Part shown: positions 1 to 27,343 of the stretch, in pieces
How positions within the stretch are numbered: the first letter of the stretch is position 1
Layout of the letters: each line of letters begins with the position of its first letter
Position numbers and translations under genes: made by a program
Source: a virus
IMG/VR virus record: IMGVR_UViG_3300022752_003478
Span: 1-38,746 of that record
Strand: one strand, 5' to 3'
Length of the DNA stretch: 38,746 nt
Notes under the pieces: generated by a model
What the model saw: only the letters and a program-made list of their open reading frames with translations
What the model was told of the DNA's origin: nothing
Databases searched by the model: none

Positions 1-42
1 GGATAACCTGTGTATAATTAGTGTGCAAATGCGAATAATTAC

Positions 43-1824: not shown

Positions 1825-1831
1825 AGTAGGG

Positions 1832-1839: not shown

Positions 1840-1851
1840 AGGCTGGGTTTT

Positions 1852-2061: not shown

Positions 2062-2076
2062 ATGATCTTCTGTCCT

Positions 2077-2092
2077 GTGTAAATATTTACAC
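2077..2092. promoter_or_regulatory. 16-bp palindrome, probable divergent late promoter
   Basis: GTGTAAATATTTACAC is a perfect 16-base palindrome between divergent genes starting at 2061 (minus) and 2096 (plus). Each strand carries TGTAAATA (plus 2078-2085, minus 2091-2084), a variant of the late box seen elsewhere in the window. The minus box is 22 bases from its ATG, the plus box 10 bases. It could alternatively be an operator for a dimeric regulator. Confidence 0.5.
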
Positions 2093-2095
2093 CTT

Positions 2096-2686: not shown

Positions 2687-3070
2687 ACCCTGATGACTTT
2701 TCTGTTCTTGAACTAGAGAACCGCAGCGCCTGTTGATCTCTTGTTTGATCTGCGCTCTTAGATCGTTTTTCTGATAGACCGCTCGGGCCGCTTCTATAAA
2801 GGCCGTGTCAAACCTTTGCCTACGTTCACAGTCTCGTTTGAAATCTTCAATATGCCACAGATCTAGGTTCACTGTGTGAAGTTCATGCTCTAACTGAGAA
2901 ATCCGGTCTGCATAGGCTGAGAGTAGGTCTGCTCTAATGCTGTCGAGTAGATCTAATTCTCTGTCTACATGGCGCTTTTTCTCGGGATCTCTAATTAGAC
3001 CGCTCTTGATCCGCAGTATGGTAATCTTGTCAATTAACTCACCTGCACTTACGGGTATAAGAATCTCCAT
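2681..3070 (-). CDS. DUF6165-like protein
   Basis: A 129-residue, mostly helical, highly charged protein. The N terminus VSAGELIDKITILRIKSG and the later NLDLWHIEDFKR are the two landmarks of the DUF6165-type family, small cytosolic proteins frequently found beside glycosyltransferases in lipopolysaccharide clusters; their activity is unknown to me. It follows the GT9-like gene with a two-base gap as the last gene of a four-gene minus-strand unit. A second copy of the same family lies at 28269-28685, also among glycan genes, which supports a shared role with sugar-transfer enzymes. Confidence 0.6.
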   Translation of the reverse strand: MEILIPVSAGELIDKITILRIKSGLIRDPEKKRHVDRELDLLDSIRADLLSAYADRISQLEHELHTVNLDLWHIEDFKRDCERRQRFDTAFIEAARAVYQKNDLRAQIKQEINRRCGSLVQEQKSHQGL

Positions 3071-10892: not shown

Positions 10893-10923
10893 TTAAACAC
10901 CTAGTTTTTTGATAATTAGTGGT

Positions 10924-13149
10924 ATGTTCCTTGACCACTTCTTTCAACCTGATCCCCATTTGGTTTTTGAAATACCATGGAATGATGATCCATTTTCCTA
11001 TGATGAAGAACTTTATGACCTTGGACAGGGTCATAGAGAATTCGTTATACTAAATCCTAGAATTGATACGAAAGATTTATTCTATGTCAATGAAATTCCT
11101 CGTACAGATAAGTGCCTAGTATGGCATAACGGTGAAACTTGGTTAGCCAAATATTTTCGTAAAGGGTGGCGGCCCTATAAAGGTTACCAAGAAATAAGAA
11201 TTGAGCCTACTGAGATTGTTTGGTCTTGGAACCCTGACATAGACAAACTCATGCAGTTTGAGGAAGATATCTATACAACCTTTCAACCGGACCCATGGGA
11301 CAGACAGTTTAAATTAGTTTGGTATATTGATAATAGATTCAATCCATTAGAAGAGAATGTATGGGCGTTTAGTTGTCAACCAAAAGGCAAGGTTGATCCA
11401 ATTAGGAAAGAAATGGGATTTGTTACGCCAAAAGTTAATGTTGAATATAACAAAGACTTACCTAGACTTTTTTTAGATATAGATCAATGTTATCCACCAT
11501 TTTGGGAATTGGTAAATGAATGTGCCTATCAATTAGACAATAAATTTGCTCCAGAAGATCCTATTTGGGTTGTTAAATTTTCTCCATCCTATCGAAAGCC
11601 TAGAGAGTGGAAATGGCTAGGAGTAATAGAACCTCAATTTGAGATTGAATATAATACAGAAATTTCTAAATTAAATTATGATATTCTTCCATATCACAAA
11701 TGGTTTGACTTAGAATATCAGCATGTATATTTTTTAGACAGAGCGTATCTACAGAACAATGAACCCGATATTTGGGTGTTAAAGTTAAGATATACAGAGG
11801 AACCATCTGGGGATAAGGATCAAGGATACATCCATCCTAAATTTAAAATTGTTAAAAATCCAAATTTACCCGATTTAAATTATGATGTTGAATATGTTCC
11901 TCCATACCATGACTTAGCCTTTGAACATATATGGATGTTAGACTCAAGTCTAACATCAAACAGTCCAGAACCAATCTGGGCATTCAAGGCTATATCTGCT
12001 AAAAAATCAAAAGGGTCAAAGATTGTAGGAGAAGTCTACCCTAAAACCTATATTGAGATTAACCAAGATCTCTCACCATATCGATTTAGTTCACCTCAGT
12101 TTCCATTAGATTATCATGATCTTGGATATCTTCATGTGTGGTATGTGAATAGTAAATTAGTTGAGCAGTCTGGTATATGGGCTTTGAGTCTAAGTTTTGT
12201 AGAAGAATGTCAAGGATTCAAAGAGTATGGAGAAATTGATCCAGACTTTACCTTTAAGAAGAATCCTGCCCTATCTGGTATAACTTACGAAATTGACTAT
12301 AAAATTCCTCTCATTGATGCACAGTATGAACATATATGGTATCTAGAAAAAGAAAATAAAAAAATATGGGCCGCAAAGTTATCAGCAACAGAAACGCCTA
12401 CGGGCACGAAGGAAGTTGGTCTAGTGATTCCAGAAATAGCCAAAACGTTAGATGTATTCTTTATAAGTTACAATGAATCTAATGCAGAGAAAAATTGGAA
12501 ACATCTTAAAAAATTAGTGCCATGGGCCCAGAGGGTAGATGGAGTAAAAGGGATTTTTGAAGCGCATAAACAAGCGGCCATGTTGTCCTCTACCGACATG
12601 TTTTATGTAGTTGATGCTGATGCTAGAGTCTTGCCCGATTTTGACTTTGCCTTTAATCCAGATCTCTTTGATAGAAAATTTGTTTACATTTGGAAAAGTA
12701 AGAACCCTTTTAATGATCTAGAATATGGTTATGGGGGTGTTAAACTTTTTCCTAAAAAACTTTTTCAAAACAAAAAGACATGGAATCAATTAGATGTTAC
12801 TACAACTTTGGCCAAGGGGTTGAAAGTTATAGAAAAAACCAGTAACATAACAGAGTTTAATACTGATAAGTTTAGCACCTGGAGAAGTGCATTTAGGGAA
12901 GCAGTAAAACTTTCAGAGAACAAAAACTATAAGGCATTAAAAAATTGGGTGACCAAACTAGATGCCAAATACGCCGACCAAGCCTTGAAGGGCATCGAGG
13001 ATGGAAAAAAATATTATTCAATCAATAAAGATCACAAAAAGAATCTACTATTAATCAACGACAGAGATTGGTTGGAACAAAAATTTAAGGAACAGAATGT
13101 CAGATACGAACCACGAAAGAATACAAAAAGTAATACCAATAATCAATAA
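10924..13149 (+). CDS. tandem-repeat protein with glycosyltransferase-like C-terminal domain
   Basis: About 741 residues. I prefer the ATG at 10924 (MFLDHFFQPDP) over a TTG five codons earlier. About six repeats of 67-75 residues run from roughly residue 95 to 505, each with an N.DL...YDI region, a YEHIWYLD-like core, an IWALKL-like strand and an ending like G....GEIDP. The last 230 residues differ: LDVFFISYNESNAEKNWKHL, then STDMFYVVDADARVLPDFDF and GGVKLFPKKLF, which looks like a GT-A glycosyltransferase with a D.D metal site (VDADA). Repeats may bind the acceptor or scaffold partner enzymes. Head of the long operon; its end overlaps the first radical-SAM gene by 53 bases. Confidence 0.6.
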   Translation: MFLDHFFQPDPHLVFEIPWNDDPFSYDEELYDLGQGHREFVILNPRIDTKDLFYVNEIPRTDKCLVWHNGETWLAKYFRKGWRPYKGYQEIRIEPTEIVWSWNPDIDKLMQFEEDIYTTFQPDPWDRQFKLVWYIDNRFNPLEENVWAFSCQPKGKVDPIRKEMGFVTPKVNVEYNKDLPRLFLDIDQCYPPFWELVNECAYQLDNKFAPEDPIWVVKFSPSYRKPREWKWLGVIEPQFEIEYNTEISKLNYDILPYHKWFDLEYQHVYFLDRAYLQNNEPDIWVLKLRYTEEPSGDKDQGYIHPKFKIVKNPNLPDLNYDVEYVPPYHDLAFEHIWMLDSSLTSNSPEPIWAFKAISAKKSKGSKIVGEVYPKTYIEINQDLSPYRFSSPQFPLDYHDLGYLHVWYVNSKLVEQSGIWALSLSFVEECQGFKEYGEIDPDFTFKKNPALSGITYEIDYKIPLIDAQYEHIWYLEKENKKIWAAKLSATETPTGTKEVGLVIPEIAKTLDVFFISYNESNAEKNWKHLKKLVPWAQRVDGVKGIFEAHKQAAMLSSTDMFYVVDADARVLPDFDFAFNPDLFDRKFVYIWKSKNPFNDLEYGYGGVKLFPKKLFQNKKTWNQLDVTTTLAKGLKVIEKTSNITEFNTDKFSTWRSAFREAVKLSENKNYKALKNWVTKLDAKYADQALKGIEDGKKYYSINKDHKKNLLLINDRDWLEQKFKEQNVRYEPRKNTKSNTNNQ

Positions 13150-14476
13150 CGTAAGTCCGTCTTTTTGTTTGGCCAAATGGTTTCATGTTACCTTGTATCT
13201 ACAAACAGGGGAAAATCATAGTTGCTATCATCCCGCACCTCATGCTATTGAAATAGATGAAATTAAGAACAATCCCAGCGCTCTACATAATACCATGCAC
13301 AAAAAATTAGAGCGACAAGAAATGAAAAAAGGCGTCCAGACTAAAGGATGTCAATATTGCTGGAACATTGAAAACATGGGCGATGGTTACATCAGTGATA
13401 GGCATATTAAAAGCGGAACTATCTACACACCTGAAAGATTAAAGTTAGCCAAAGGATCCTGGAAGAATGATGTCAATCCAGAATATATTGAAATAAGTTT
13501 TGGTAATGAATGTAATTTTAAATGCGGGTATTGCCATCCAAAGGCCAGTAGCAGATTTTACAATGAGATACGTGAACACGGCCCAGTTACCACAGTGAAC
13601 AATCATAGGTGCGACATTGATTGGTTTAGGTTATATGAACGAGAAGAAGCCAATCCCTATGTAGATGCATGGTGGAAATGGTGGCCCAGTCTAAAACAGG
13701 ATCTTACTATTCTACGTATCACAGGTGGCGAGCCTTTAATGCATACTAGTACGTGGAGGCTTTTAGAGGATTTGAAAAAGGATCCGGCTCCTGGACTGGA
13801 ATTAAATGTTAACAGTAATTTAGGTATGAAAACTGCATTAGTTGACAAACTCATTAACAATGTTAATTACCTAATTGAAAATAATTCTATCAAAAGATTT
13901 AAATTGTTTACTAGTATTGATACTTGGGGTCCTCGTGCAGAATATATACGAACAGGGCTTGATATAAAGTTATGGGAAAGTCACCTTGACAAATACCTTA
14001 AAGAAGTAGGCCATCCTATTAGTTTTATGATAACATTTAATATTTTAAGTGTTACTACCTTTCATTTATTGTTGAAAAATATCCTTAAATGGAGGAAAAA
14101 ATATAACAAGTATAATAAGACTGATCAATATCAGATGGTTAGATTTGATACACCCTATCTCAAAGAACCATTACAATATGACATCAATATTCTACCAAAA
14201 GAACAATATATGCCCTACATGTATGATTGTCTAAGTTTTATAGAAAAGAACACAGACGATCATGATCCATTTAAGTTTAGTCTAGTAGAGTTTGAAAGAT
14301 TCCGTAGAATTGTAAAATATATGGAAACCACAGTTTATGATAATGCAAGAACACACGAAGGCAGAAAAGATTTTTATAATTGGTTTACTGCATTAGACCA
14401 AAGAAGAGGTACTAATTTTCAAAAAACATTTCCAGAAATGAAAGAATTTTATAAAGAATGTTCAAAGAAAAATTAA
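13097..14476 (+). CDS. twitch-type radical SAM protein (divergent)
   Basis: A 459-residue radical-SAM enzyme. The [4Fe-4S]/SAM motif is C139-x3-C143-x2-C146 (ECNFKCGYCHP) and the SAM-binding GGE motif is present (RITGGEPLMH). An N-terminal cysteine set, C24 (FCLAKWFHV), C43 (HSCYHP) and C85/C88 (GCQYCW), aligns with the auxiliary-cluster twitch region of the next three genes, although its second motif lacks the CC doublet they share. Such auxiliary clusters usually position peptide or sugar substrates or relay electrons. The chemistry is unknown. The start at 13097 is required to keep C24 and makes a 53-base overlap with the repeat protein, implying tight coupling. Confidence 0.75.
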   Translation: MSDTNHERIQKVIPIINNVSPSFCLAKWFHVTLYLQTGENHSCYHPAPHAIEIDEIKNNPSALHNTMHKKLERQEMKKGVQTKGCQYCWNIENMGDGYISDRHIKSGTIYTPERLKLAKGSWKNDVNPEYIEISFGNECNFKCGYCHPKASSRFYNEIREHGPVTTVNNHRCDIDWFRLYEREEANPYVDAWWKWWPSLKQDLTILRITGGEPLMHTSTWRLLEDLKKDPAPGLELNVNSNLGMKTALVDKLINNVNYLIENNSIKRFKLFTSIDTWGPRAEYIRTGLDIKLWESHLDKYLKEVGHPISFMITFNILSVTTFHLLLKNILKWRKKYNKYNKTDQYQMVRFDTPYLKEPLQYDINILPKEQYMPYMYDCLSFIEKNTDDHDPFKFSLVEFERFRRIVKYMETTVYDNARTHEGRKDFYNWFTALDQRRGTNFQKTFPEMKEFYKECSKKN

Positions 14477-15726
14477 AATTAAAACAAAAATACCTTTTAG
14501 AAGAAAGTAAACATTTCTGTATATTACCTTGGTTACACATACATTCTGTACCAAATGGTAATGTTAGTCCTTGTTGCATATCTTACCCGGGTCACTTTAC
14601 AGGCAAAGTTAAGTCGGAAACTAGATTAATGGAATTAGTTAATTCTGATCCTATGAAACAGTTAAGGTTAAACATGGTAGATGATAAACCATCTACCATC
14701 TGTAAAACCTGTTATAATACTGAGGCAATTGGGGGTGCCAGTTTCAGACAGCATTCTAATAAGATTTATGCACAATTTTATGAAAGGGCTGTATCTAATA
14801 GCACAGAAGAAAGTGGTAATCTTACAGAATTTAAAATGAATTACTTTGATTTTAGATTCAGTACGATTTGTAATTTTAAATGTAGAACCTGTACATCGGA
14901 TTATAGTAGCCAATGGGAACAGGAGAATGTCAAACACAAAAAGGATTACGTGCCTATTCGGAGAGAAAAAAGTACACCTCTACTAGATGATATTATAGAG
15001 CAGATACCAAACATGCACGAAGCATATTTTGCAGGTGGAGAGATATTGATAACAGATGAACATTATACTTTGTTAGAAAATATGATAGCGAAAGGTAAAA
15101 CTGACACTATTCTAAAATATAATACCAATCTCAGTGTTTTTAATTTTAAAGATAAAAATCTAATTGATCTCTGGAAGCAATTTAAGTTTCCTATTAGTAT
15201 CGGCGGTAGTCTAGATCATTATGGTTCTAGAGCAGAATACCTAAGACACGGAACTGATTGGAACAAGATTGCTGATAACATTCGATATCTAAAATCTAAT
15301 TTAGGTTCCAAGGCAGACCTATGCTATAATACAGTGCTTAGTGTTTTTAATGTTCTAACATTACAGGATTTCTATAAAAATCTAGTAAGAGAAAATCTTT
15401 ATGATCCTACAATTGACGGGGTGTTTAGTATCTATAAAATTTCTTCTCCAAGTTATTATAGTCCTCATATTCTAAATTTAGAAGAAAAATCCTATGCTAT
15501 TGGACAAATCGAGCAACTAATAAATTTCTTCCGACTTTACAGAAGAGATAGGAACAGATTTGAAAGTATTAAAAAAGTTCTTGAAGATACTATTACATTT
15601 CTTAAACTAGATATTGATTTGAGTAAGGAAATTGATATGTTTAAACAAGAAACTTTGCGTTTAGATCAAATTAGGAAAGAAAATTTTGTTGATATCTTTC
15701 CTGAATTAAAAAGGTTAGTAGAATGA
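14458..15726 (+). CDS. N-terminal twitch-type radical SAM protein
   Basis: A 422-residue protein. The N terminus HFCILPWLHIHSVPNGNVSP followed by CC (C39/C40), and C82-x2-C85, form the auxiliary Fe-S half typical of the twitch-domain-containing radical SAM family. The radical-SAM core follows with C138-x3-C142-x2-C145 (TICNFKCRTC) and AYFAGGEILIT. It belongs to a tandem set of three close paralogues (this gene and the next two). Product unknown; the family often accompanies glycosyltransferases and SGNH proteins in phage and aquatic bacterial genomes, as far as I know. Overlaps the previous gene by 19 bases and the next by four. Confidence 0.8.
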   Translation: MFKEKLKLKQKYLLEESKHFCILPWLHIHSVPNGNVSPCCISYPGHFTGKVKSETRLMELVNSDPMKQLRLNMVDDKPSTICKTCYNTEAIGGASFRQHSNKIYAQFYERAVSNSTEESGNLTEFKMNYFDFRFSTICNFKCRTCTSDYSSQWEQENVKHKKDYVPIRREKSTPLLDDIIEQIPNMHEAYFAGGEILITDEHYTLLENMIAKGKTDTILKYNTNLSVFNFKDKNLIDLWKQFKFPISIGGSLDHYGSRAEYLRHGTDWNKIADNIRYLKSNLGSKADLCYNTVLSVFNVLTLQDFYKNLVRENLYDPTIDGVFSIYKISSPSYYSPHILNLEEKSYAIGQIEQLINFFRLYRRDRNRFESIKKVLEDTITFLKLDIDLSKEIDMFKQETLRLDQIRKENFVDIFPELKRLVE

Positions 15727-16967
15727 AAGATGATTTAAAAAATAAAAAAGATCACCTACTAAAAGAAAGTAAGGTGTTTTGTATGTTTCCTTGGTTACAT
15801 CTAAATGTAACTCCCAAGGGCGATATCTATCCTTGCTGTAGTAATAACTATTCAGAACCATTTGGTAATACCAAAACTATTTCTCTAGAGCAGGCTATAA
15901 ATTCTGAAAAGATGAAAGAACTGCGTTTGAATATGTTAAATGGTGTGCCTAGCAAGATTTGTGAATTCTGTTATAAACATGAAGAAGCAGGACCTCATAG
16001 TTTTAGAAATTACAGCAAAGACAACTTTGCCAAATACTATGACGAACTAATACCTGCCACAGAAGAAGATGGATCAATAAAAGATTTTAGGATGAGATAT
16101 TTTGATATCAGGTTTAGTAATATTTGTAATTTTAAATGCAGAACCTGTGGTGCCGAATTTAGCAGTCAATGGGCTGCTGAGAATCGTGTTTATGACAAGA
16201 CTTTACCTATTCTGATGCACGCTGATGATCAAAAAGGCAATCTACTTGAAGAAGTTTTGTCACACATTGATCATATTGATCTAGCCTATTTTGCAGGAGG
16301 TGAACCTCTTATCACTGATGAACATTATGTTATGTTAGAGGAGATGATTAGGAAAAAGAAAACCAATATCATACTGCGCTATAATACCAATGCGAGTAAT
16401 ATAAAGTTTAAAAATTATGATATTCTAAAATTATGGAAACACTTTAAAAAGATTGAACTAAGTTGTAGCATTGATCACTATGGAGACAGAGCAGAATGGA
16501 TAAGGAAGGGAACTGATTGGGGAGTAGTAGAAACCAATCTATTAAAGTTCCGTGACTTAAAATATGTTTCTTTTCAAATAAACACGGTTTTTAGTATTTT
16601 TAATTATTTGACTCTATCAGACTTTTATTCATATATGATAAAGAAAAATCTTATACGAAAAACTGATTGGCACAATAGTTTATATTTGGCTATTCATCCT
16701 AGTTATTACAGTGCTAAGAGCCTGCCTGTCAAATTGAAAAAAACTGCAAGGGAAAAAGCATACCTTCTCCTATTAAATGAAGCCAAGGATTACCCACAGT
16801 TAAATACGCTGGTACATGATGCTATCATATTTGCAGACGAATCTAATACATGGGCAGAAAACAAACAGATATTTTTCAAGCACACATTAGACATAGATGC
16901 ACTTCGTGATGATAATTTCTTCAAGACCTTCCCAGAACTACGCCCACTAATAATGGAATTAGAATGA
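15723..16967 (+). CDS. N-terminal twitch-type radical SAM protein
   Basis: A 414-residue paralogue of its neighbours. The auxiliary site is C20 (VFCMFPWLHLNVTPKGD), C38/C39 and C80-x2-C83; the catalytic motif is C135-x3-C139-x2-C142 (NICNFKCRTC), with LAYFAGGEPLIT as the SAM-binding GGE segment. The later DHYGDRAEWIRKGTDW block is shared with the genes on both sides and is probably a substrate- or SAM-contact region specific to this subgroup. The start overlaps the upstream stop by four bases (ATGA). Three such enzymes in a row suggest successive or combinatorial modification of related sites. Confidence 0.8.
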   Translation: MKDDLKNKKDHLLKESKVFCMFPWLHLNVTPKGDIYPCCSNNYSEPFGNTKTISLEQAINSEKMKELRLNMLNGVPSKICEFCYKHEEAGPHSFRNYSKDNFAKYYDELIPATEEDGSIKDFRMRYFDIRFSNICNFKCRTCGAEFSSQWAAENRVYDKTLPILMHADDQKGNLLEEVLSHIDHIDLAYFAGGEPLITDEHYVMLEEMIRKKKTNIILRYNTNASNIKFKNYDILKLWKHFKKIELSCSIDHYGDRAEWIRKGTDWGVVETNLLKFRDLKYVSFQINTVFSIFNYLTLSDFYSYMIKKNLIRKTDWHNSLYLAIHPSYYSAKSLPVKLKKTAREKAYLLLLNEAKDYPQLNTLVHDAIIFADESNTWAENKQIFFKHTLDIDALRDDNFFKTFPELRPLIMELE

Positions 16968-18247
16968 TTAAAAAGAATCAAATTGATGAATCCAAATATT
17001 TTTGTATCCTGCCCTGGATACATTTTCATGCTTGGCCTAACGGCAAGGTATTTCCCTGTTGTATGGCAGATAGTTCTATTCAGTTTAGTTCAACAGAAGA
17101 AGAGTCTGTAATTAAGATGATGAACGCAGATGAGTTCAAAAAGATAAGGCTCAACATGATGGACGAGAAACCTAGTCTAGCCTGTAAGAGATGCTATGAC
17201 TTAGAAAAGCATGGTATATGGAGCCTTAGAAAAAGTCATAACAAGGTACGAGGTGAAGAAAGTTTTGATCTAGTCAAGGCCACCAAAAAAGATGGATCAA
17301 TTGAAAACTTCAAGTTCAAATATATGGATATTAGGTTTAGTAATATCTGTAATATGAAATGCAGAACCTGTGGGCCTGAATGTAGTAGTCTCCACGCACA
17401 AGAATATACAGAAAAGAAATGGTCTAAGGAACATCTTAAGATATGGTTTAACATGGATAAGATCGTGGTCAACTGTAATGAAGATGGTAAGTTCATGGAG
17501 AAACTTAAACCGCACCTTGCTGATGTAGAGGAGGTTTATTTTGCAGGTGGTGAGAGTCTTATTACTCCAGAACACTACGAACTACTAGACTTTTGGATAG
17601 CACTTGAAAAGTTTGATGTTAATATTACCTATACTACGAATTTTAGTGTGTTCAAGTATAAAAAGAAAAACGTACTAGACTACTGGTCAAAGTTCAAAAC
17701 AGTGAAAATATATGCTAGCCTAGATGCTAATTACCAAGTTGCTGAATATCTACGCAAAGGTACAGTATGGAGCGATATTGAAAAGAATATACAAACAATT
17801 AAGAAGAAAGCACCTAATGTTACCTTTGCTCTTACACCTACGATCAGTATATGGAATGTACATAATTTTCCAGACATGTTTCAAGAGTGGTTAGACAAAG
17901 GCTACATCAATATAGACAGTGAATTAAGAATTAACCTGTTAACACATCCGTGGTGGGGTAATATCAATATCCTTCCTTATTTTTACAAGCAGCAGGTGGC
18001 AGAAAAGTGGCGTAAACTGCACGACGATCCTAAATTTCCACGTGAAGTGCATAATGCTTTTGGTGTTGTTTTGAACGCCTTAGAAGCAGATAAATCAGCT
18101 AAAAACGTAAAAAGCAATCCTGACGGATTGAAAGAATTTTTTGAAGAAAACAAAAAGACAGACGAAATACGGGGTGAAAGTTTGTTTCAGGTTATCCCCG
18201 AACTTAAGGACGTATACAAATGGACACTCGCAAACTCATCGAAATAA
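16964..18247 (+). CDS. N-terminal twitch-type radical SAM protein
   Basis: A 427-residue protein, third of the close paralogues. The auxiliary site is C14 (YFCILPWIHFHAWPNGK), C32/C33 and C74-x2-C77. The core is C129-x3-C133-x2-C136 (NICNMKCRTC) with VYFAGGESLIT. It diverges most in the C-terminal 150 residues, where it has THPWWGNINILPYFYKQQ in place of the SPSYYS/HPSYYS segment of the other two, so its substrate probably differs. The next gene starts 28 bases inside it. All cysteines expected for two [4Fe-4S] clusters are intact. Confidence 0.8.
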   Translation: MIKKNQIDESKYFCILPWIHFHAWPNGKVFPCCMADSSIQFSSTEEESVIKMMNADEFKKIRLNMMDEKPSLACKRCYDLEKHGIWSLRKSHNKVRGEESFDLVKATKKDGSIENFKFKYMDIRFSNICNMKCRTCGPECSSLHAQEYTEKKWSKEHLKIWFNMDKIVVNCNEDGKFMEKLKPHLADVEEVYFAGGESLITPEHYELLDFWIALEKFDVNITYTTNFSVFKYKKKNVLDYWSKFKTVKIYASLDANYQVAEYLRKGTVWSDIEKNIQTIKKKAPNVTFALTPTISIWNVHNFPDMFQEWLDKGYINIDSELRINLLTHPWWGNINILPYFYKQQVAEKWRKLHDDPKFPREVHNAFGVVLNALEADKSAKNVKSNPDGLKEFFEENKKTDEIRGESLFQVIPELKDVYKWTLANSSK

Positions 18248-19191
18248 AACAAAACAAAAAGTTTCTAGATATCACATGGCAGGTAAACAATTTCTGTAAC
18301 TATAAGTGCAGTTATTGTAATCCGGGAAACTATGAAGGCACGGCACGCAATGACAAAGACCTTGATATGTATCTAAATGGCATCAAGAATATTACTGCCA
18401 AATATCTTAAGAAAGGTTACAAGAATTTTAAGTTTTTCTTTAGTGGAGGGGAACCTACACTATGGCGTAATCTTATTCCTATCTGCGAATGGATCAAATC
18501 AGATTTGCCTAATTCAATAATCGCCCTGAACACTAACTTGAGTAGGCCCACCTCATGGTGGAAAAAGCATATTCATTTGTTTGATGATGTTGTTGGAAGT
18601 TTTCATATTGAATTTGCAGATCAAGAACGTTATAAACAAAATGCCATGTTCTTACATGATAAGTTAAATTATTTTAGTTGTAAGATGTTGATGCATGAAG
18701 AAAGATTTTGGGAGGTTGTTCAGTTTGGAGAAGAATTAAAGTTAATGCTGCCCAATTATTTTATTGAATGGACACCATTGTTTAACGAAATGACCTTAAA
18801 TGCTCGTCCCTGGGAATATAAAGATCCTAAGCATACAAAGTTTCTAGAAGAGCATAGTATTGATCAAAAGAGAACTGTCCCACAGAAGGTGATTAAGAAT
18901 CCGTTCTTTGCCATGGCCAAATGGGATGATCAAACTATTACAAGTATTAACAGCAATGAAATCACAGTAAAGCGTATGAACTTTTTTAAGGGTTGGGAGT
19001 GCTCCATAGGTGATTGTATTTGGATAAATCAAATTGGAATGATCAGTATGGGAACCTGTGGGCAGGTAAAAACTCTAGGACACATATCTGATGTAAAGAA
19101 TATTGGCCCACTGAAGATAACTTGTGAAAAGGAGCACTGTCATTGTGGCACAGATATTCTTATTCCAAAGAAAGCCGTAGCCGGAGTTTAA
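18220..19191 (+). CDS. radical SAM protein with C-terminal cysteine cluster
   Basis: A 323-residue radical-SAM protein of different layout: the catalytic motif is near the N terminus, C26-x3-C30-x2-C33 (NNFCNYKCSYCNPG), with FFFSGGEPTLW as the GGE motif, while a SPASM-like set of cysteines is C-terminal (WECSIGDC, GTCGQV, then CEKEHCHCG). This is the order usual for SPASM or twitch enzymes that modify peptides or sugars, and the opposite of the four preceding genes. It shares no N-terminal twitch. It abuts the B12-type gene with no intergenic base. A QueE-like assignment was considered, but the length and C-terminal cysteines argue against it. Confidence 0.75.
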   Translation: MDTRKLIEIKQNKKFLDITWQVNNFCNYKCSYCNPGNYEGTARNDKDLDMYLNGIKNITAKYLKKGYKNFKFFFSGGEPTLWRNLIPICEWIKSDLPNSIIALNTNLSRPTSWWKKHIHLFDDVVGSFHIEFADQERYKQNAMFLHDKLNYFSCKMLMHEERFWEVVQFGEELKLMLPNYFIEWTPLFNEMTLNARPWEYKDPKHTKFLEEHSIDQKRTVPQKVIKNPFFAMAKWDDQTITSINSNEITVKRMNFFKGWECSIGDCIWINQIGMISMGTCGQVKTLGHISDVKNIGPLKITCEKEHCHCGTDILIPKKAVAGV

Positions 19192-21420
19192 ATGGATTTT
19201 ACGCTAAGACATCTTGCAAATGACAACATAAAACCTAAAGAACGTCCTACAGAGGACGTAGCAGATTTACGCCATAGAAGTATGATGGATGCGATCGCAC
19301 CATATGCTAAACCAACAGAGCAAAAAAATCTTACTCCTGTTTATATAAATTATAAAACTAGGAATACCAAATTAGCTCTAGTGCTTTGTCCAGAATGGAG
19401 TCCCTATATGCCTCCTTTTAGTCTTGCTCGGTTAAGTGGTGTTGCCAAGAGTGCAGGATATGAAACTCATATTTTTGATCTCAATGTAAAGGCCTATAGA
19501 AAATTTAGAGATGATTGGTGGCCTAATAAAAAAATACCTTTTAGGCTTTGGGACCCAAGTGCTAGTTGGAGATGGTTAGGTGAAACTTATCATAGAGATG
19601 TCCATCCTTTATTAGAACCTTTACTTGAGGAACATGTTACAAAAATTATAAATCTTGATCCTGATGTTGTGGGGTTTAGTTTATACTACATATCTGAGGA
19701 ACCCAGCAAATGGATGGCACGTGAACTTAAACGACGAGCACCTCATATAAAAATAGCAGTAGGAGGACCAACTGTTCATAAGAGTTGGTTTGATATCAGG
19801 CCTGAATATGATTATGTTGTAGTTGGTGAAGGTGAAGGAAATCTACTTCTGATGTTAGAAGAAATTGAAGAAAAGAAGCAAGTAGAATATCCAAGAATTT
19901 TAAAACAGCCAGAAGAGGAACGTATTAATCTAAACAATATGCCCATGCCTGATTATGAGAGTATTGATTTTAGTTTATATGATTTACCAAACGGGGTAAA
20001 CAGTGAAATTAGTAGAGGATGTACAGCCAAATGTAGTTTCTGTGAAGAAACACATTTTTGGAAATATAGACAGCGTCAGGCAGTAGATCTTGTAACAGAA
20101 GTTGAATGGCTTTACTACAATAAAGGTACAGATATCATTTGGTTTATTGATAGTCTTGTAAATGGTAATATCAAAGAACTTCGTGCATTTGCTCTTGCAC
20201 TTAAAAGTAAAGGATTAAAGGTTAGATGGACAGGATATGCTAGATGCGACGGGAGGATGGATTTACAGTATCTTCAAGATCTAGCAGATGGCGGTTGTCT
20301 CATGTTTAACTTTGGAGTAGAGTCTGGTAGTCAAAGAGTCTTGGATGATATGCACAAAGGTGTAACCATTCGAGAGATGGAACAAAACTTTAAAGATTGT
20401 AAGACTGTAGGTATTTGGTGTGCTACAAATTGGATCGTAGGATTTCCTACAGAAAAATTTCAGGACTTCGCAGATAGTATAACCTTTCTTTGGCGGATGA
20501 GAAATAATAATATCAACAATGTAGGTGCAGGTGTTGGATTTGCACAAGGTCCAGAAACACTTACAGGACAAAATCCTCATAGATTCAATTTAAGTTTCCA
20601 AAAATATCTTACTCATTGGATTACCAAAGATTTCTCTATGGGCGGCACCCATGTAATGATGCGAGTTAAGTCCTTTCATATATTTCTTGATATGATGAGA
20701 GGTACTACACAGGCTTCTTTCAGTTATCCTGTAAGATTTAATCTAGCCAAAGAACATTATAAAATTCGTCTACATGAACCTAGTTTTAATAGAGAAGTTG
20801 AATATGAAAAATTTGATTACAATATAATCAATGTAGATATTAATCCTTATGCAAATACAATGATTAATGAAATGTGGGTATTCTTTAGGATGCTATGGCG
20901 TACTAGAGGTGGATACGATGCTACTATATTATTCAACCCGGAAATTGATGAAAGGGAGTTCGGATCTACTTATGGACCACACGGATTAACAGCAGTATAC
21001 AAATTTAGTATTACCAAAGACGGAAAATGGAAGGCAGACTTTGATATTAATTTTAAGCAATTACCTAATCCAGATGATAGGTTTAAAAACAATGAGCCAA
21101 AAAGAATGGGTCCTTTCTTTGCTGTAGACTTTACAAGATTACAGAGTAATGCTGCAAGGCGTTCACGTAAATTGTCTAGGCCTCCCTGGTCAGTTGAAGA
21201 TGGCAGATCAGATAAGGACTATGGAGATTTACTAAATGAAGAAGTGGAGTTAAATCCTAAAACAGACTTTACATTTAATTTTCATTATAAGGGAACAGGA
21301 GACTGGAGCAATCATTTAGATTACGTGATAGATGTGCCTAATCAAAGCACCATGGACGCTATACCTGAAAAAGAGGCAGAAAATTTAAACAAGATGATAT
21401 TTGTCAAGAAGGAATCATGA
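19192..21420 (+). CDS. B12-binding-domain radical SAM protein
   Basis: A 742-residue protein. Residues about 58-230 form a cobalamin-binding-like Rossmann domain (LALVLCPEWSPYMPPFSLAR, then DPDVVGFSLYYISEEPSKW, IAVGGPTVHKSW and YVVVGEGEGN). Many members of this class lack the DxHxxG cobalt-ligand motif, and I do not see one here. The radical-SAM motif is C277-x3-C281-x2-C284 (SRGCTAKCSFCEETHFW). Residues about 490-742 are an extra domain I cannot assign. Class members methylate unactivated carbons or remodel rings. In this operon a methylation, rearrangement or cyclisation on a sugar, lipid or peptide is possible, but the substrate is unknown. Confidence 0.8.
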   Translation: MDFTLRHLANDNIKPKERPTEDVADLRHRSMMDAIAPYAKPTEQKNLTPVYINYKTRNTKLALVLCPEWSPYMPPFSLARLSGVAKSAGYETHIFDLNVKAYRKFRDDWWPNKKIPFRLWDPSASWRWLGETYHRDVHPLLEPLLEEHVTKIINLDPDVVGFSLYYISEEPSKWMARELKRRAPHIKIAVGGPTVHKSWFDIRPEYDYVVVGEGEGNLLLMLEEIEEKKQVEYPRILKQPEEERINLNNMPMPDYESIDFSLYDLPNGVNSEISRGCTAKCSFCEETHFWKYRQRQAVDLVTEVEWLYYNKGTDIIWFIDSLVNGNIKELRAFALALKSKGLKVRWTGYARCDGRMDLQYLQDLADGGCLMFNFGVESGSQRVLDDMHKGVTIREMEQNFKDCKTVGIWCATNWIVGFPTEKFQDFADSITFLWRMRNNNINNVGAGVGFAQGPETLTGQNPHRFNLSFQKYLTHWITKDFSMGGTHVMMRVKSFHIFLDMMRGTTQASFSYPVRFNLAKEHYKIRLHEPSFNREVEYEKFDYNIINVDINPYANTMINEMWVFFRMLWRTRGGYDATILFNPEIDEREFGSTYGPHGLTAVYKFSITKDGKWKADFDINFKQLPNPDDRFKNNEPKRMGPFFAVDFTRLQSNAARRSRKLSRPPWSVEDGRSDKDYGDLLNEEVELNPKTDFTFNFHYKGTGDWSNHLDYVIDVPNQSTMDAIPEKEAENLNKMIFVKKES

Positions 21421-22160
21421 ATAAAATTTTATTAATTTCAGGGTGTAGTCATGCTGCTGGAGCAGAAATAGACGGAAGTAAGGACAGTAAATTTAATAGA
21501 GAATTTAGTTTTGGAAATCAACTTGCAAGACTTTTGGGGAGGAAACCTGTTAATGTTGCATCTAGTGGAGGTACAAATGCTACTATTCTAAGAAGTATTA
21601 TGCATTGGATTCAAGAAAATACAAATGAACAAGATGTTATGGTCCTAGCATCATGGACGGAAAGCACAAGGATGGAAATTCCTATATCTTATGAAAAAAC
21701 AAGCGATTGGGAAAAAGAAGGAAACTATGCAGATTATGCGTCACCCCACAATAAGCATTTTGTTAAACTGAATATGGGGTGGAAGGGTTTAAACGATTGG
21801 GAAAAAGAAATCATCGAAAGGGTGTATCCTATTATGGTTTTTCATGAGTTATATCTACAGATATCCTGTGCTCATATAGTATTGGCTTTACATAATTTTT
21901 TAAAAAATAAACAGATTCCGCACCTAATGACAAATTCTATGTATATGTTCAATGATGATTTTAGATTAGATCCATATCTATCTGAAATTGCTCCTAAGAA
22001 TTATTACATGATGAGAGATAATGAACAGTGTTTTTATCAAAAATATAAAAATCTAGGATACACAAATCCTAAGGCTACATATTGGCATCATGGACCGGAT
22101 GCTCACGAAGCCTATGCAAAAGAATTATATACCTATATAAATACATTTTTAACAAGTTGA
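21417..22160 (+). CDS. SGNH-hydrolase-like protein
   Basis: A 247-residue protein with the block order of the SGNH/GDSL fold: ISGCSHAAGAE with candidate nucleophile S11, SSGGTNATI around N54, and a C-terminal GPDAHEAYAK supplying Asp and His. The DVMVLASWTESTRMEI segment fits the block that precedes the third catalytic region. Family members are esterases or O-acyl transferases/hydrolases on glycans and lipids. Two further SGNH-like genes (28687 and 34137) share GCS at the N terminus but little else. Its ATG overlaps the stop of the B12 enzyme by four bases. Removal or transfer of acyl groups on the modified glycan is a reasonable guess. Confidence 0.65.
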   Translation: MNKILLISGCSHAAGAEIDGSKDSKFNREFSFGNQLARLLGRKPVNVASSGGTNATILRSIMHWIQENTNEQDVMVLASWTESTRMEIPISYEKTSDWEKEGNYADYASPHNKHFVKLNMGWKGLNDWEKEIIERVYPIMVFHELYLQISCAHIVLALHNFLKNKQIPHLMTNSMYMFNDDFRLDPYLSEIAPKNYYMMRDNEQCFYQKYKNLGYTNPKATYWHHGPDAHEAYAKELYTYINTFLTS

Positions 22161-22161: not shown

Positions 22162-23568
22162 ATGCCAGTTTCAGTACCGTTCTATTATGATTATGTTTTA
22201 CCAAACATTTGCTTGCCAAATGCAACTCCTCCTCAGATGGGTATTATAAACTATATACATACATTATATTCTAATAAACTAAATCAACAAAGTTATTTTG
22301 ATTGTGATATTGATGATCCTAAAGGCCCTATGATGGGGTTATTAGGTGGACAGTTTGGCTACATGCCTAACAGTATTTGGAATAATGGCACTTATCTTTC
22401 ACAAGATTGTTTTTCAAGTCATATAGATGTGCAAAACAATTCTATGTTTTTTGGGAAACAACGTTTTAAAAAATATGTATATCCGATTAAGGTTAATTTA
22501 CATTTTCAGGATTTCACAGGGGTAAATCAAAATCGGTATTCAAGATTAGAGGGCGAATATTTTTGGAAATATATGTCTGAAGAGGCTCTCATAGATGCTA
22601 GAAGAAAGCAGTCTGTTATTTTATTGGATTGGGCCAATGAAAATTTTATTGAAAAACATGAATTTGATAATTTTCATAAAAGTTTAGACAGGTGTCAAAT
22701 TGATAAATCTCAGATTATACTTACAATCAATAGTTTTAATGCAGATGAAGTATATAACTCATGGTACCAAGAGCACGAACGTAAGGTCACAGTTGTAAAT
22801 TTACCATTCTTAATTTATCATACTTCGTATCATTATAATATTTCAAAATCAGGTTTTACTCCTGACATAATATTTAGATCTACTAGGAACAAACAGAGAG
22901 AATTCTATTTCACCTATAAAATAAAAAGGGCGAGAGAACATAGAATTAATATCCTTTACAAGTTAGCAGCAGATCAATGCCTCGATAAGGCAGATTGGTC
23001 ATTGCTTGATAAAGAAGGACTGAATAGGGGTGTTAATTTACATCGATATGGTTTCGCTCACGATCCGAATCTAATTCAATCAATAAATGCCAAGGTACCG
23101 AAAACACTAATAGACGAACCAACCGCTTCAAATGATAATACTCATGGATGGAGTGAAGTAAACTTCAAACCTTATCTAAACAGTTATTTTTACCTTTGTA
23201 CAGAAACATATCATCATGCTCCTTATAAGTCTCTAACAGAGAAAATATTTAAACCTTTGGCTAACTTCAAACCGATAATATTTTATGGCCCACAGGGCTC
23301 TTTAGAAATACTGAGAAAACTAGGATTTCAAACTTTTTCACCACATATAGATGAAAGTTATGATAATGAGTCTGACGATAATAGAAGGATGCATATGGTC
23401 TGTGCCGAAGTTCATCGCCTCTGCCAAATGACTCCAGAACAAATACATCAGTGGTATTGGGACATGGAAGAAATATATTACCATAATAGAAAGACTCTAC
23501 TAGAATTTTACGAACGGCCAGAATATGTAGGGCCTATTGTGAACTTATTACACGAGAGAACAAGATAA
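22162..23568 (+). CDS. putative glycosyltransferase, TEK-motif family
   Basis: A 468-residue protein. The C-terminal third has SYFYLCTETYHHAPYKSLTE, followed by KIFKPLANFKPIIFYGPQGS and LEILRKLGFQTF, then DESYDNESDDNRRMH. This 'vtEt......TEKifKp...kpfi..g..g.L..L...GF.tf....DEsYD' pattern resembles the nucleotide-sugar-binding half of fucosyltransferase-like (GT-B) proteins. An R-rich segment KIKRAREHRINILYKLA around residues 253-269 corresponds to the step between the two domains. Two relatives lie at 30110 and 34925. Activity and sugar are not determinable. It starts one base after the preceding stop and ends in a one-base TAATG overlap with the RmlC-like gene. Confidence 0.5.
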   Translation: MPVSVPFYYDYVLPNICLPNATPPQMGIINYIHTLYSNKLNQQSYFDCDIDDPKGPMMGLLGGQFGYMPNSIWNNGTYLSQDCFSSHIDVQNNSMFFGKQRFKKYVYPIKVNLHFQDFTGVNQNRYSRLEGEYFWKYMSEEALIDARRKQSVILLDWANENFIEKHEFDNFHKSLDRCQIDKSQIILTINSFNADEVYNSWYQEHERKVTVVNLPFLIYHTSYHYNISKSGFTPDIIFRSTRNKQREFYFTYKIKRAREHRINILYKLAADQCLDKADWSLLDKEGLNRGVNLHRYGFAHDPNLIQSINAKVPKTLIDEPTASNDNTHGWSEVNFKPYLNSYFYLCTETYHHAPYKSLTEKIFKPLANFKPIIFYGPQGSLEILRKLGFQTFSPHIDESYDNESDDNRRMHMVCAEVHRLCQMTPEQIHQWYWDMEEIYYHNRKTLLEFYERPEYVGPIVNLLHERTR

Positions 23569-24113
23569 TGAACTACAAATTATTGCCTTGGAATAATTTT
23601 GAAATAAGTTATCTTAGAACATTTCCTTTAGATGTCCCTGTCTATACACCTTCAATTTATAGAGAATACAGAGGTGAAATTTTTACCACCTTTCAAAACA
23701 AAGAACATCCTGTTATGGATTTGCTGCCTAACGATGTTGTTATACATTCAAGGTTTTCTAGATCAAACAAGGAAGTGTTACGTGGTCTTCACTACGATAA
23801 TAAAACTTGGAAATTGGTTCAAGCCCTTGTAGGAGAAATTTATCTAGTGATTTTAGATCTAAGAGAAGATTCAACTACATATGGTAAATGGGAATCATAT
23901 ATTCTATCAGAAAGAACAAGGGATCAAGTTTTAGTACCACCGAACTTTGCCAATGGCCATTATGCTCTAACTGACTGTATATTTCATTATAATCTTTTCT
24001 ATCAAGGTGAGTATGTAGATGAATCAGCACAGGGAGTCATAAAATGGAACGACAAAAGATTTGGCATAGAGTGGCCAACTGAAAGTCCAATACTGCAAAA
24101 GAGAGACAGATGA
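23568..24113 (+). CDS. RmlC-like sugar 3,5-epimerase
   Basis: A 181-residue cupin-fold enzyme, family length. SRSNKEVLRGLHYDN (66-78) is the RmlC signature with catalytic H75; WKLVQALVGEIYLVILDLRE follows as in dTDP-4-dehydrorhamnose 3,5-epimerases, and VPPNFANGHYALTD matches the 'P.gfAHGf..l' loop, although the family's usual His-Gly order is altered (NGHY). Epimerises a 4-keto nucleotide sugar at C3 and/or C5, or C3 only in some relatives. No RmlA or RmlB partner is in the window, so the substrate may come from the host or from another nucleotide (GDP- or CDP-) route using the neighbouring SDR enzymes. Confidence 0.75.
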   Translation: MNYKLLPWNNFEISYLRTFPLDVPVYTPSIYREYRGEIFTTFQNKEHPVMDLLPNDVVIHSRFSRSNKEVLRGLHYDNKTWKLVQALVGEIYLVILDLREDSTTYGKWESYILSERTRDQVLVPPNFANGHYALTDCIFHYNLFYQGEYVDESAQGVIKWNDKRFGIEWPTESPILQKRDR

Positions 24114-24739
24114 TTGAAAATTTAGAACAATATCAGATAATAAGGGACAATTTTTGTACCAAGGAAGATCTTTTAGAGTTTGAAAACCTTATAGTAAAAC
24201 ATTGGGAAGATGCCAAGATTAGAGGACCAGTTCATTTATCAAATGGTAATGAAGAACAACTAATAGAAATTTTCAAAAGGATTGATAAAAATGATTGGGT
24301 ATTCTCTACATGGAGAAGTCACTATCATGCTTATCTAAAAGGTCTAGATCCAAGTTGGATTGAGGATCAGATACTGCAAGGTAAATCTATTACTATCTGT
24401 AATCATGAACAAGGATTTTATTCTAGTGCCATCGTGGGTGGAACGCTACCTATTGCACTAGGAGTTGCGATTGGATTAAAAAGACAGCAGTCTAATAAAA
24501 AAGTTTGGTGCTTTATCGGTGATATGTGTTTTGAAACAGGTGGGTTTTATGAAGTACATAAGTACGCTAGAAATTTTGACATTCCATTATATTTTGTGGT
24601 TGAAGATAATGATATATCTACTTACACACCTACAGTGCATACATGGAATAAAAAAAGAGATTTACCTAGCGATGTAATTAGATACTGTTATAGGTCTAAG
24701 TACCCGCACTACGGATCTGGAAAATGGATAGCATTTTAG
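24110..24739 (+). CDS. thiamine-diphosphate enzyme, E1-alpha-like (PP domain)
   Basis: A 209-residue protein carrying the diphosphate-binding half of a dehydrogenase-E1/transketolase-type ThDP enzyme. AIVGGTLPIALGVAIGLK matches the E1-alpha 'ivG...plg.G.A.a.k', and CFIGDMCFETGGFYEVHKYA with YFVVEDNDIST gives the GD(G/M)...N metal site (G137, D138, N167), Gly to Met in the third position being the oddity. E1-alpha subunits are usually about 320 residues, so this is a minimal version. The pyrimidine-binding half is a separate gene at 29571, five genes downstream. Together they could transfer a two-carbon unit or acetyl group, as in branched-sugar biosynthesis; this is inference. Confidence 0.7.
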   Translation: MIENLEQYQIIRDNFCTKEDLLEFENLIVKHWEDAKIRGPVHLSNGNEEQLIEIFKRIDKNDWVFSTWRSHYHAYLKGLDPSWIEDQILQGKSITICNHEQGFYSSAIVGGTLPIALGVAIGLKRQQSNKKVWCFIGDMCFETGGFYEVHKYARNFDIPLYFVVEDNDISTYTPTVHTWNKKRDLPSDVIRYCYRSKYPHYGSGKWIAF

Positions 24740-24746: not shown

Positions 24747-26384
24747 ATGGAAATTGAAAATAAAACAATTTTGATTACAGGAGCGAATGGACTGGTAGGT
24801 GTTCCTACTGTTATACAATGTCTTGAAGAAGGAGCAGCAAAAGTTATTGCCGTAGATCTAGTAGAAGGACAGGACCTTAGGCTACTCAAGAAAAAATATC
24901 CAGATCGACTAAGTGTTGTTCTAACAGATCTTACAGAGTACCAAAACTGTAAAAGCCTATTTTTAGACAACAAAATAAATTATGTGCTACATCTTGCAGG
25001 TATCAAAGGTAGCCCAATAAGAGCAAAGAATAGCCCTGCTGACTACTTTTTTCCTATGTTAATGTTTAACACCAATATGATTAAACTGGCACATGAATAT
25101 AATGTTGATTGGTTTGTATTTTTATCTAGTGTTGGAGTATATCAACCTGCTGATGTGATGCATGAAGATGATATTTGGACCACAATGCCTAGCCCTAATG
25201 ATTGGTATCCTGGATGGGCTAAACGATGCGGTGAATTGGCTATAGAAACTCTCCAAAAGCAATACGGATGGAATAAGGTAACTGTTATACGTCCTGCAAA
25301 TATTTTCGGTGAAAATGATAATTTTAGTCCAGATGCTACAGTTGTAGCCAGCAATGTATGGAAATTATTTAATGAGCAAGGAGACACTATAACCTGTTGG
25401 GGTGACGGTAGTGCTAAGAGAGATTTTGTATTTGCTAGAGACGTAGCCAAGGCAACTTTAGATGTAATTAAAAAAGAAGTTCAAGACACAATAAATTTTG
25501 GTTCAGGTCATGCTCGTAGCATTAAAGAAACAATCGAAACTCTAGTAGAGGCCTACAAGAAAATATTTAAAAAGCCTAAGACTATCGTATGGGATACCAG
25601 TAAACCAAATGGAGACCTACACCGATGCCTAGGTGATGTAAAGCAAAGAAAATACAACATATTGCCTACTACTGATTTTCAAAAGGCTCTAATGTTAACA
25701 ATTTTAGGGTATAAAAGAAAGTCAAGAGATTTTATAAAACTAAAAGTAAATGGATTTCATATAGGACATGTCAGTGAAATTATTGAAGATTGGGATACCT
25801 TTGAATCTATTATAAGCGATTTGCCTGATTTTGATTCTGCTGAGTTTTATAGATATAGGAATCAAATCAAAGAACAAAGAGTGCCTTGGGAAATTGACCT
25901 TGATGAAATTCCTCAACGTAGACAAGACATTAAGGACAATGATTGGCACATTCATCAGCAGTGGTATGTTACCTATAAGGGAATTAATGGTAAAGATAGA
26001 TATTTCCAAAGGCAAATAGAAAATTTTGTATCTGTCATCTATCCTGAAATAGATATGTCTAAAAGAAATATATCATATAACGACATGTTTACAATTTATA
26101 AAGACGATGACTTTATTGAACTTCATCAAGATGGATTTAACAAAGGTAGATTATGTGTAATTTTGATTTACCTTAGTGATGTAACTGATACAGATGTTGG
26201 TGGAGAATTAGTAATTAAGGACAGACAAGGTAATCTAATTCCTGTCGCCTGTGATAAAGGAAACTATGTAATTCTGGACTTTACAAAGTACAATCTTCAT
26301 CATGCTGTGTCTCCTGTAAAGAATAATTTTATTAGACGAGCCTACCTAGCGTTTGTCTATAATAACGACTTAAGGAATGATTAA
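24747..26384 (+). CDS. SDR nucleotide-sugar enzyme fused to 2OG-Fe(II) oxygenase
   Basis: A 545-residue fusion. Residues 1-310 form an extended SDR: ILITGANGLVGVP with GxxGxxG at 12-18, RPANIFGE, GDGSAKRDFVFARDV. The usual YxxxK catalytic pair is not intact: the local sequence is DWYPGWAKRCGE, with Y154 five, not four, residues before K159. Residues about 420-545 are a prolyl-hydroxylase-like 2-oxoglutarate oxygenase: IELHQDGFNKGR (H460, D462), VGGELVI, LHHAVSPVKNNFIRR with the distal His (518/519) and the 2OG-binding Arg. Fusion suggests sequential NAD(P)- and O2/2OG-dependent chemistry on one sugar nucleotide or on its glycoside. Starts seven bases after the previous gene. Confidence 0.75.
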   Translation: MEIENKTILITGANGLVGVPTVIQCLEEGAAKVIAVDLVEGQDLRLLKKKYPDRLSVVLTDLTEYQNCKSLFLDNKINYVLHLAGIKGSPIRAKNSPADYFFPMLMFNTNMIKLAHEYNVDWFVFLSSVGVYQPADVMHEDDIWTTMPSPNDWYPGWAKRCGELAIETLQKQYGWNKVTVIRPANIFGENDNFSPDATVVASNVWKLFNEQGDTITCWGDGSAKRDFVFARDVAKATLDVIKKEVQDTINFGSGHARSIKETIETLVEAYKKIFKKPKTIVWDTSKPNGDLHRCLGDVKQRKYNILPTTDFQKALMLTILGYKRKSRDFIKLKVNGFHIGHVSEIIEDWDTFESIISDLPDFDSAEFYRYRNQIKEQRVPWEIDLDEIPQRRQDIKDNDWHIHQQWYVTYKGINGKDRYFQRQIENFVSVIYPEIDMSKRNISYNDMFTIYKDDDFIELHQDGFNKGRLCVILIYLSDVTDTDVGGELVIKDRQGNLIPVACDKGNYVILDFTKYNLHHAVSPVKNNFIRRAYLAFVYNNDLRND

Positions 26385-27343
26385 TGAAAATTTTAATTAC
26401 TGGAGGATCTGGTCTTGTTGGGCAGAACCTTACAAACAAATTAGTGTTATTAGGGTATAATGATCTACGCATACATATTAACAAAAGACAGCCCAGAAAT
26501 AGGCATGCTTCTTGCGAATACATAACTGGTGATTTAAGACTCTACGACACATGTCTTACAATTACTAAAGATGTCGATGTTGTAATTCATGCCGCGGCAA
26601 GTACATCAAATGCTGTTGACACGGTTAATGATCCTCTAGCGCATGTAACACCCAATGTGGCTATGAATAATTTCTTAATTGACGGTGCCTATAGAAATAA
26701 GGTATCAAAATATATTTTTATAAGCAGCAATACCGTTTATCCTCCTAAAGGAGATGAACCCGTAAGGGAAACTGATTTTTTATTTGATGAACCTTATCCT
26801 GTATATTTTCCTGTAGGTTGGATGAAACGATATGCAGAAGTGCAGTGCGAACTATATGCCAAGTATTTGCCTAATCCAATGACCACGGTAGTGATTAGGC
26901 CTGCGAATCTTTATGGTCCACATGACAAATATGACTTTGCTCGATGCCACGTTACGCCTGCTACGATAAGGAAGGTAGCAGATAATATGGATCCAATACC
27001 TGTTTGGGGAGACGGTACTGAACTAAGAGATCTACTTTATATTGACGATTTTGTGGATGCCTTAATCGCAGTTATAGAAAAGCAAAATACCTACGATGTT
27101 TATAATGTAGGATCTAATAAGGTTTACAGTGTCTTAGAAGTATTAGACACTATGAAGTCAATTGTAGATAATACTAATCCTGTAGAGTTTATAAAAGGTA
27201 AACCGAGTATGATTCCTGTTAGGAAAATCAATAGCGACAAAATTATGCAGAATTTAGGATGGATCCCTAAGGTCGACTTGACGCAAGGTTTAAAAATGGC
27301 CTATGATTGGTATCTGGCCAATAAGCAAGAATTCACGCGATGA
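26384..27343 (+). CDS. SDR nucleotide-sugar epimerase/reductase-like protein
   Basis: A 319-residue extended SDR. ILITGGSGLVGQNLTNKLV is the NAD(P)-binding GxxGxxG motif; VDVVIHAAAS, FISSNTVYPP (Ser/Thr of the active site) and VVIRPANLYGPHDKYD follow as in GDP-fucose-synthase/GDP-mannose-dehydratase relatives, and the C-terminal WGDGTELRDLLYIDDFVDAL is diagnostic. As in the preceding enzyme, the YxxxK catalytic pair is disrupted: the region reads YFPVGWMKRYAE, with Val where the Tyr should be. Either a shifted Tyr (Y141, seven residues before K148) serves, or the chemistry does not need it. Coupled to both neighbours by one- and four-base overlaps. Confidence 0.75.
   Translation: MKILITGGSGLVGQNLTNKLVLLGYNDLRIHINKRQPRNRHASCEYITGDLRLYDTCLTITKDVDVVIHAAASTSNAVDTVNDPLAHVTPNVAMNNFLIDGAYRNKVSKYIFISSNTVYPPKGDEPVRETDFLFDEPYPVYFPVGWMKRYAEVQCELYAKYLPNPMTTVVIRPANLYGPHDKYDFARCHVTPATIRKVADNMDPIPVWGDGTELRDLLYIDDFVDALIAVIEKQNTYDVYNVGSNKVYSVLEVLDTMKSIVDNTNPVEFIKGKPSMIPVRKINSDKIMQNLGWIPKVDLTQGLKMAYDWYLANKQEFTR

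Follow-up and report, generated by a model that had tools for sequence, protein, structure and literature searches.

A conserved, ordered radical-SAM gene module in T4-like phages, with a possible role in glycan biosynthesis

Introduction

What would a phage do with six radical-SAM enzymes encoded side by side? The question is raised by a 38,746-base IMG/VR virus record (IMGVR_UViG_3300022752_003478), analysed here over its whole length and referred to as the window. A first-pass annotation, made from the sequence alone, described a row of six radical-SAM genes in a phage, attributed them to tandem expansion under selection for several related radical chemistries, and suggested a previously undescribed phage-encoded modification pathway.

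In the broad sense, this claim of novelty does not hold, as two publications precede it. The T4-like marine virus TARA_ERS488813_N000010 and its relatives were reported to carry a Fe-S carrier or IscU together with several Fe-S-related genes, 12 of which, in one genome, are radical-SAM genes (Nishimura et al. 2017, PMC5332604, main text). In T4-like pelagimyophages, glycosyltransferases are concentrated in a host-recognition cluster, in which radical-SAM cassettes vary (Zaragoza-Solas et al. 2020, PMC7029224, accessible text). Here we describe the organization, conservation and probable origin of the block, and weigh what it may produce.

Results

A search of the window with the PF04055 (Radical_SAM) profile gave exactly six matches, with E-values from 3e-20 to 1e-7, two of them slightly below the curated cut-off. 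The corresponding ORFs, rS1 to rS6, lie in a row on the same strand at 13097-21420, as annotated, and all contain an intact CxxxCxxC motif, which was invariant in every aligned phage ortholog. Spacing between consecutive genes was -19, -4, -4, -28, and 0 bases, so that the described pattern of overlapping (by 4 to 28 bases) or abutting genes is correct. The run does not end at 21420, however: the radical-SAM genes form the 5' part of a co-linear, same-strand run of 19 genes, spanning 10909-31766, with intergenic gaps of at most 7 bases, which suggests a single transcription unit (Table 1). Within this run, the genes for the two halves (alpha and beta) of a small E1-like TPP enzyme are about 5 kb apart. 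At the left end of the window, G+C content was 44-48% (positions 1-3000), compared with 31-37% over most of the sequence beyond about 8 kb, and a YqgE/AlgH-like gene of bacterial type (2096-2686) adjoins LamG-type proteins.

Table 1. Features of the window discussed in the text.
Feature	Coordinates	Strand	Remarks
Repeat protein with C-terminal GT-A-like domain	10909-13149	+	Domain at about residues 510-620, DxD D569/D571; 53-base overlap with rS1; 5' of rS1 in most phage loci
rS1, N-twitch radical SAM	13097-14476	+	Auxiliary Cys 24, 43, 85, 88; CxxxCxxC 139-146; C455 conserved
rS2, N-twitch radical SAM	14458-15726	+	Cys 21, 39, 40, 82, 85; motif 138-145
rS3, N-twitch radical SAM	15723-16967	+	Cys 20, 38, 39, 80, 83; motif 135-142
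rS4, N-twitch radical SAM	16964-18247	+	Cys 14, 32, 33, 74, 77; motif 129-136
rS5, radical SAM with C-terminal five-Cys auxiliary-cluster region	18220-19191	+	C261, 280, 302, 307, 309
rS6, B12-binding radical SAM (class B type)	19192-21420	+	Below all NCBIfam equivalog cut-offs
SGNH-hydrolase-like protein	21417-22160	+	By reading; DUF6071, PF19547
Putative glycosyltransferase (22162 family)	22162-23568	+	Motif only
dTDP-4-dehydrorhamnose 3,5-epimerase family, RfbC-like	23568-24113	+	PF00908
TPP-enzyme E1-alpha-like half	24110-24739	+	Pfam/NCBIfam
NAD-dependent sugar epimerase/dehydratase fused to C-terminal 2OG-Fe(II) oxygenase domain	24747-26384	+	Pfam/NCBIfam
NAD-dependent sugar epimerase/dehydratase	26384-27343	+	Pfam/NCBIfam
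NAD-dependent sugar epimerase/dehydratase	27340-28272	+	Pfam/NCBIfam
SGNH-hydrolase-like protein	28687-29574	+	By reading only (FTGCSFTWGQG); no Pfam match
TPP-enzyme E1-beta/transketolase pyrimidine-domain half	29571-30113	+	Pfam/NCBIfam
Second 22162-family member	30110-31234	+	
IscA	36013-36333	-	TIGR02011 above cut-off
IscU scaffold with intein	36317-37726	-	
ErpA-type carrier	37775-38098	+	PRK13623 above cut-off

The division of the six proteins into four with an N-terminal twitch region, one with a C-terminal cysteine cluster and one of B12 type was confirmed. rS1 to rS4 belong to the N_Twi_rSAM family (NF033640, NCBIfam), with scores of 298-362 bits against a cut-off of 170 and N-terminal auxiliary cysteines that are invariant or nearly so. 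To our knowledge, no member of this family has a characterised reaction. rS5 is not a member (33 bits against the same cut-off) and does not have the N-terminal cysteine region; among family profiles, only PF04055 assigns it to the radical-SAM enzymes, and its structural model matches radical-SAM folds. Its five auxiliary cysteines are C-terminal and invariant in 85 phage orthologs. rS6 combines a B12-binding domain (PF02310) with PF04055, both above cut-off, which is the class B (B12) architecture. From this domain make-up, it is predicted to be a methyltransferase of that class; methylation is not the activity of every B12-radical SAM enzyme. The NCBIfam model nearest to rS6, TIGR03975 (RiPP C-methyltransferase), scored 99 bits against a cut-off of 282, and rS6 is thus not a member of that family.

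Comparison with characterised enzymes gave only remote relatives. By profile, BtrN is the solved structure that comes closest to the twitch part of rS3 (2e-5). The folds nearest to the rS5 model were BlsE, MoaA, and viperin, with SuiB, BtrN, and SpeY lower and TigE and PqqE also among the neighbours; BtrN, BlsE, and MoaA are remote, with 12-15% identity and TM of about 0.5. The sugar and cyclitol enzymes BtrN, SpeY, and BlsE resemble the rS proteins in combining a radical-SAM core with an auxiliary-cluster region, but their twitch is C-terminal, whereas that of rS1 to rS4 is N-terminal, and identity is very low. The core domains of rS1 to rS5 gave weak MoaA and viperin scores, all far below cut-off (for the viperin model NF038283, 18-37 bits against 180), so that none belongs to the viperin family.

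The same block was sought in other phage contigs by scanning viral contigs with rS6 and rS5, which gave 17 and 80 loci, respectively, with gene maps drawn from ORF calls. These calls are mechanical, the contigs are fragments, and related samples may have yielded several near-copies of the same phage, so that locus counts exaggerate independence. In about 80 IMG/VR contigs (up to 364 kb), a recurrent order was observed: a protein of the type encoded at 10909, rS1, one to three genes of the rS2/rS3 type, rS4 and rS5, usually with rS6 further on. rS5 and rS6 are adjacent in the closest relatives of the window and separated by other genes in most loci; rS2 is the radical-SAM member most often absent. 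A second B12-radical-SAM family, KedN5-like by a partial score (245 of 700 bits), was found in 36 loci.

In a tree of 314 N-twitch proteins, rS1, rS2, rS3, and rS4 fell into four groups, represented in 80, 57, 74, and 84 loci, with support of 0.58, 0.87, 0.55, and 1.00, respectively, the rS1 and rS3 groups being therefore only modestly supported. Judged by this tree, rS1 to rS4 are four separate ancient orthogroups; ordinary recent tandem duplication of the N-twitch genes is ruled out. The proposed tandem expansion can thus be retained as an ancient event among rS1 to rS4, but not for rS5 and rS6, which are different types of radical-SAM protein. The cysteines are conserved, as claimed: over the 57 to 85 loci assessed, those of the motif are invariant in every group, and so are the auxiliary cysteines, except at two rS1 positions (79/80). 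Pairwise dN/dS between close orthologs had medians of 0.05-0.08 for all six genes, ratios which are rough since they come from NG86 counting with dS often above 1. By this measure, all six genes are under strong purifying selection and, with ratios of about 0.05 and four orthogroups kept side by side, the idea of selection for several distinct enzymes is borne out.

A sampling based on the T4 major capsid protein gp23 alone, taken from one block-bearing phage, recovered 22 contigs, 11 of which carry N-twitch genes above cut-off; all ten of those longer than 80 kb carry at least one above the NF033640 cut-off. Such genes are thus not uncommon in this T4-like group. The 116 kb contig IMGVR_UViG_3300028557_000015 has about 14 N-twitch genes within about 20 kb (38183-58419), far more than the window.

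The phage location of the block was supported by its neighbourhoods. gp23 is absent from the 38.7 kb window itself and present in 13 of 32 block-bearing or related contigs. One relative (L276) shares the SleB-IscA-IscU-ErpA end of the window and continues with a DNA ligase, an HNH endonuclease and virion structural genes; the last, cut ORF of the window (38501-38746) resembles its ligase ORF. In another (L269), a close relative of the right half of the window, a baseplate wedge/tail-fibre connector gene is nearby. Bacterial DNA miscalled as viral was considered as well, given that N-twitch enzymes also occur in bacteria and that one block with the same gene order lies on a contig binned as Rhodobacteraceae (L108; GTDB MAG contig NZVE01000006.1). 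The other bacterial NF033640 homologs, however, are 29-38% identical to rS3 and mostly single-copy, occasionally tandem. The Rhodobacteraceae contig is short (18.7 kb) with a phage gene order, and is probably a phage block binned with a bacterium, while gp23 on block-bearing contigs contradicts a bacterial origin. We consider such an origin extremely improbable; from its gene content, the block is genuine phage DNA of T4-like type. Two objections foreseen at the outset, namely a bacterial chromosome with no phage neighbours and ORFs inactivated in relatives, both fail, since the block is phage-borne and the ORFs are intact. Bacterial tandem N-twitch genes have mixed housekeeping neighbours, which give no guide to function, and in two bacterial loci (L117, L140) rS5-like genes adjoin N-twitch genes.

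Among named phages, neither a nucleotide search with the block nor tblastn with rS1, rS5 or the 10909 protein gave a match, and tblastn with rS6 gave only a weak one, in Streptomyces phage SF3. Vibrio phage K566/K567, a sequenced phage of 255 kb, has a cluster of three N-twitch-like radical-SAM genes, but these are only about 22% identical, and no match to rS5 or rS6 was found in it.

The GT-A-like neighbour of rS1 is present in 76 loci. Its DxD motif is invariant in 56 sequences, and the top Foldseek matches of the C-terminal part of its model are nearly all glycosyltransferases or nucleotidyltransferases, at a weak level (E about 5e-3, low TM, pTM 0.50). In many loci, the protein consists of the GT-A-like part only (318 aa, no repeat region), and the repeats are therefore not a constant partner. 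The commonest neighbour family is the 22162 family, with 251 copies in 85 loci; it had no meaningful match in Pfam or PDB profile searches, and its glycosyltransferase label thus rests on motif reading. A PDB profile search with the paired 267-aa family was empty. rfbC and E1-alpha were present in only 9 loci, and many relatives keep the radical-SAM core without rfbC, E1-alpha and some epimerases, so that the core is not bound to these specific sugars. In 21 loci there is a gene that, on reading alone, resembles an amidinotransferase gene.

No RRE/PqqD domain was found by Pfam in the six radical-SAM proteins. Only 109 bases of 10909-32445 lie outside called genes, which leaves no room for a separate RiPP precursor gene. 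A RiPP cluster was ruled against on these two grounds.

The window also encodes Fe-S assembly proteins. A-type Fe-S carriers were found in 11 of 32 block-bearing or related contigs and in 6 of the 22 gp23-selected contigs; conversely, only 4 of 80 phage loci containing ErpA, many of them short, have an N-twitch gene, which makes the association non-specific. The IscU gene contains an in-frame intein of about 340 aa, starting with CLTSN and ending with VGSHN, immediately before the conserved cysteine of the TYGC-GSA motif. Among IscU copies in ErpA-anchored phage loci, 17 out of 18 have normal or near-normal length, and in the remaining one (L325) the same position is occupied by a homologous intein. 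In another phage group (L270, L272, L294, L317, L338, and L344), an ORF of about 3000-3300 aa directly follows ErpA.

Discussion

Our results suggest, with a probability of roughly 0.55, that the block forms the central part of an operon by which the phage would make or modify glycans, lying in the structural/host-recognition region of T4-like genomes. The conserved order in about 80 contigs, together with the adjoining glycosyltransferase and sugar genes, indicates that these phages probably use radical chemistry to make an unusual sugar. The suggestion of a phage-encoded modification pathway is thus plausible in general terms. The weak resemblance of the protein before rS1 to GT-A enzymes, the BtrN- and BlsE-type nearest relatives and the sugar genes favour a glycan pathway; SuiB and PqqE, on the same list of relatives, keep peptide chemistry possible.

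In such a pathway, the epimerases, RfbC and the TPP halves would provide a deoxy or branched nucleotide sugar, and the GT-A-like protein would transfer a sugar onto a carrier or acceptor. rS1 to rS5 would each generate a 5'-deoxyadenosyl radical from SAM and, with an auxiliary [4Fe-4S] cluster, may oxidise, epimerise or deoxygenate different positions, as BtrN, SpeY, and BlsE do on cyclitols and sugars, while rS6 might move a methyl group from methylcobalamin onto carbon. The product would most likely decorate the host surface, resulting in receptor change or superinfection exclusion, or the virion. More tentatively, the four to six non-redundant radical-SAM enzymes could form a virus-specific assembly line, acting stepwise on one carrier-linked glycan to give a class of sugar foreign to the host for a surface or virion coat.

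Modification of a protein or peptide is a rather unlikely alternative, in which the SPASM/twitch enzymes would crosslink, epimerise or methylate a tail-fibre or other structural protein, or the repeats of the 10909 protein. SPASM enzymes characterised so far act mostly on peptides, tail-fibre-like and other structural genes adjoin the block in relatives, a repeat protein lies directly upstream of rS1, the model nearest to rS6 is a RiPP methyltransferase, and SuiB, TigE, and PqqE are among the fold neighbours of rS5. However, rS6 is far below the cut-off of that model, the upstream protein often has no repeats, and both the RRE/PqqD domain and space for a precursor gene are missing. Small-molecule or nucleotide chemistry apart from surface glycans, such as a viperin-like nucleotide, a modified DNA or RNA base, a lipid or a secreted aminocyclitol-like compound, appears improbable: the viperin and MoaA scores and the amidinotransferase-like gene point in this direction, but these scores are far too low, no DNA-modification gene was recognised within the block, and glycan genes prevail around the block in the window.

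We also regard as very improbable that the radical-SAM enzymes serve mainly host metabolism, with IscU, IscA, and ErpA as a Fe-S auxiliary module. The three Fe-S genes share the 38.7 kb contig with the block, A-type carriers recur among related contigs, and Fe-S supply to viral enzymes has been proposed (PMC5332604, main text); ErpA nevertheless often occurs in phage loci that lack a radical-SAM gene in the vicinity. A link between the Fe-S genes and the block is plausible without being specific, and IscA is a possible supplier of Fe-S clusters.

The published phages are close parallels. The TARA_ERS488813_N000010 group, like the window, is T4-like with several radical-SAM genes and Fe-S assembly genes, but the main text of that study gives gene counts without families, order or glycan neighbourhood (PMC5332604). 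Pelagimyophages share with the present group a T4-like island with glycosyltransferases and radical-SAM cassettes; in its accessible text, that work only mentions the cassettes and does not describe an ordered rS1-rS5 module (PMC7029224). Searches of the open-access literature, which misses most subscription papers, gave no account of the ordered module, the orthogroups or the invariant cysteines. What appears to be new is thus the conserved, ordered module, T4-like phages with multiple radical-SAM genes having already been published.

Radical-SAM enzymes are costly: they are sensitive to oxygen and place a demand on iron, sulfur, and SAM. Their number, 4 to 14 per phage, and the strong purifying selection on them therefore point to a specific benefit to the phage. 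With a defined module of five to six genes, and dozens of contigs that carry orthologs, the question of function becomes testable and, if the chemistry of the module were worked out, the N_Twi_rSAM family would gain its first reaction.
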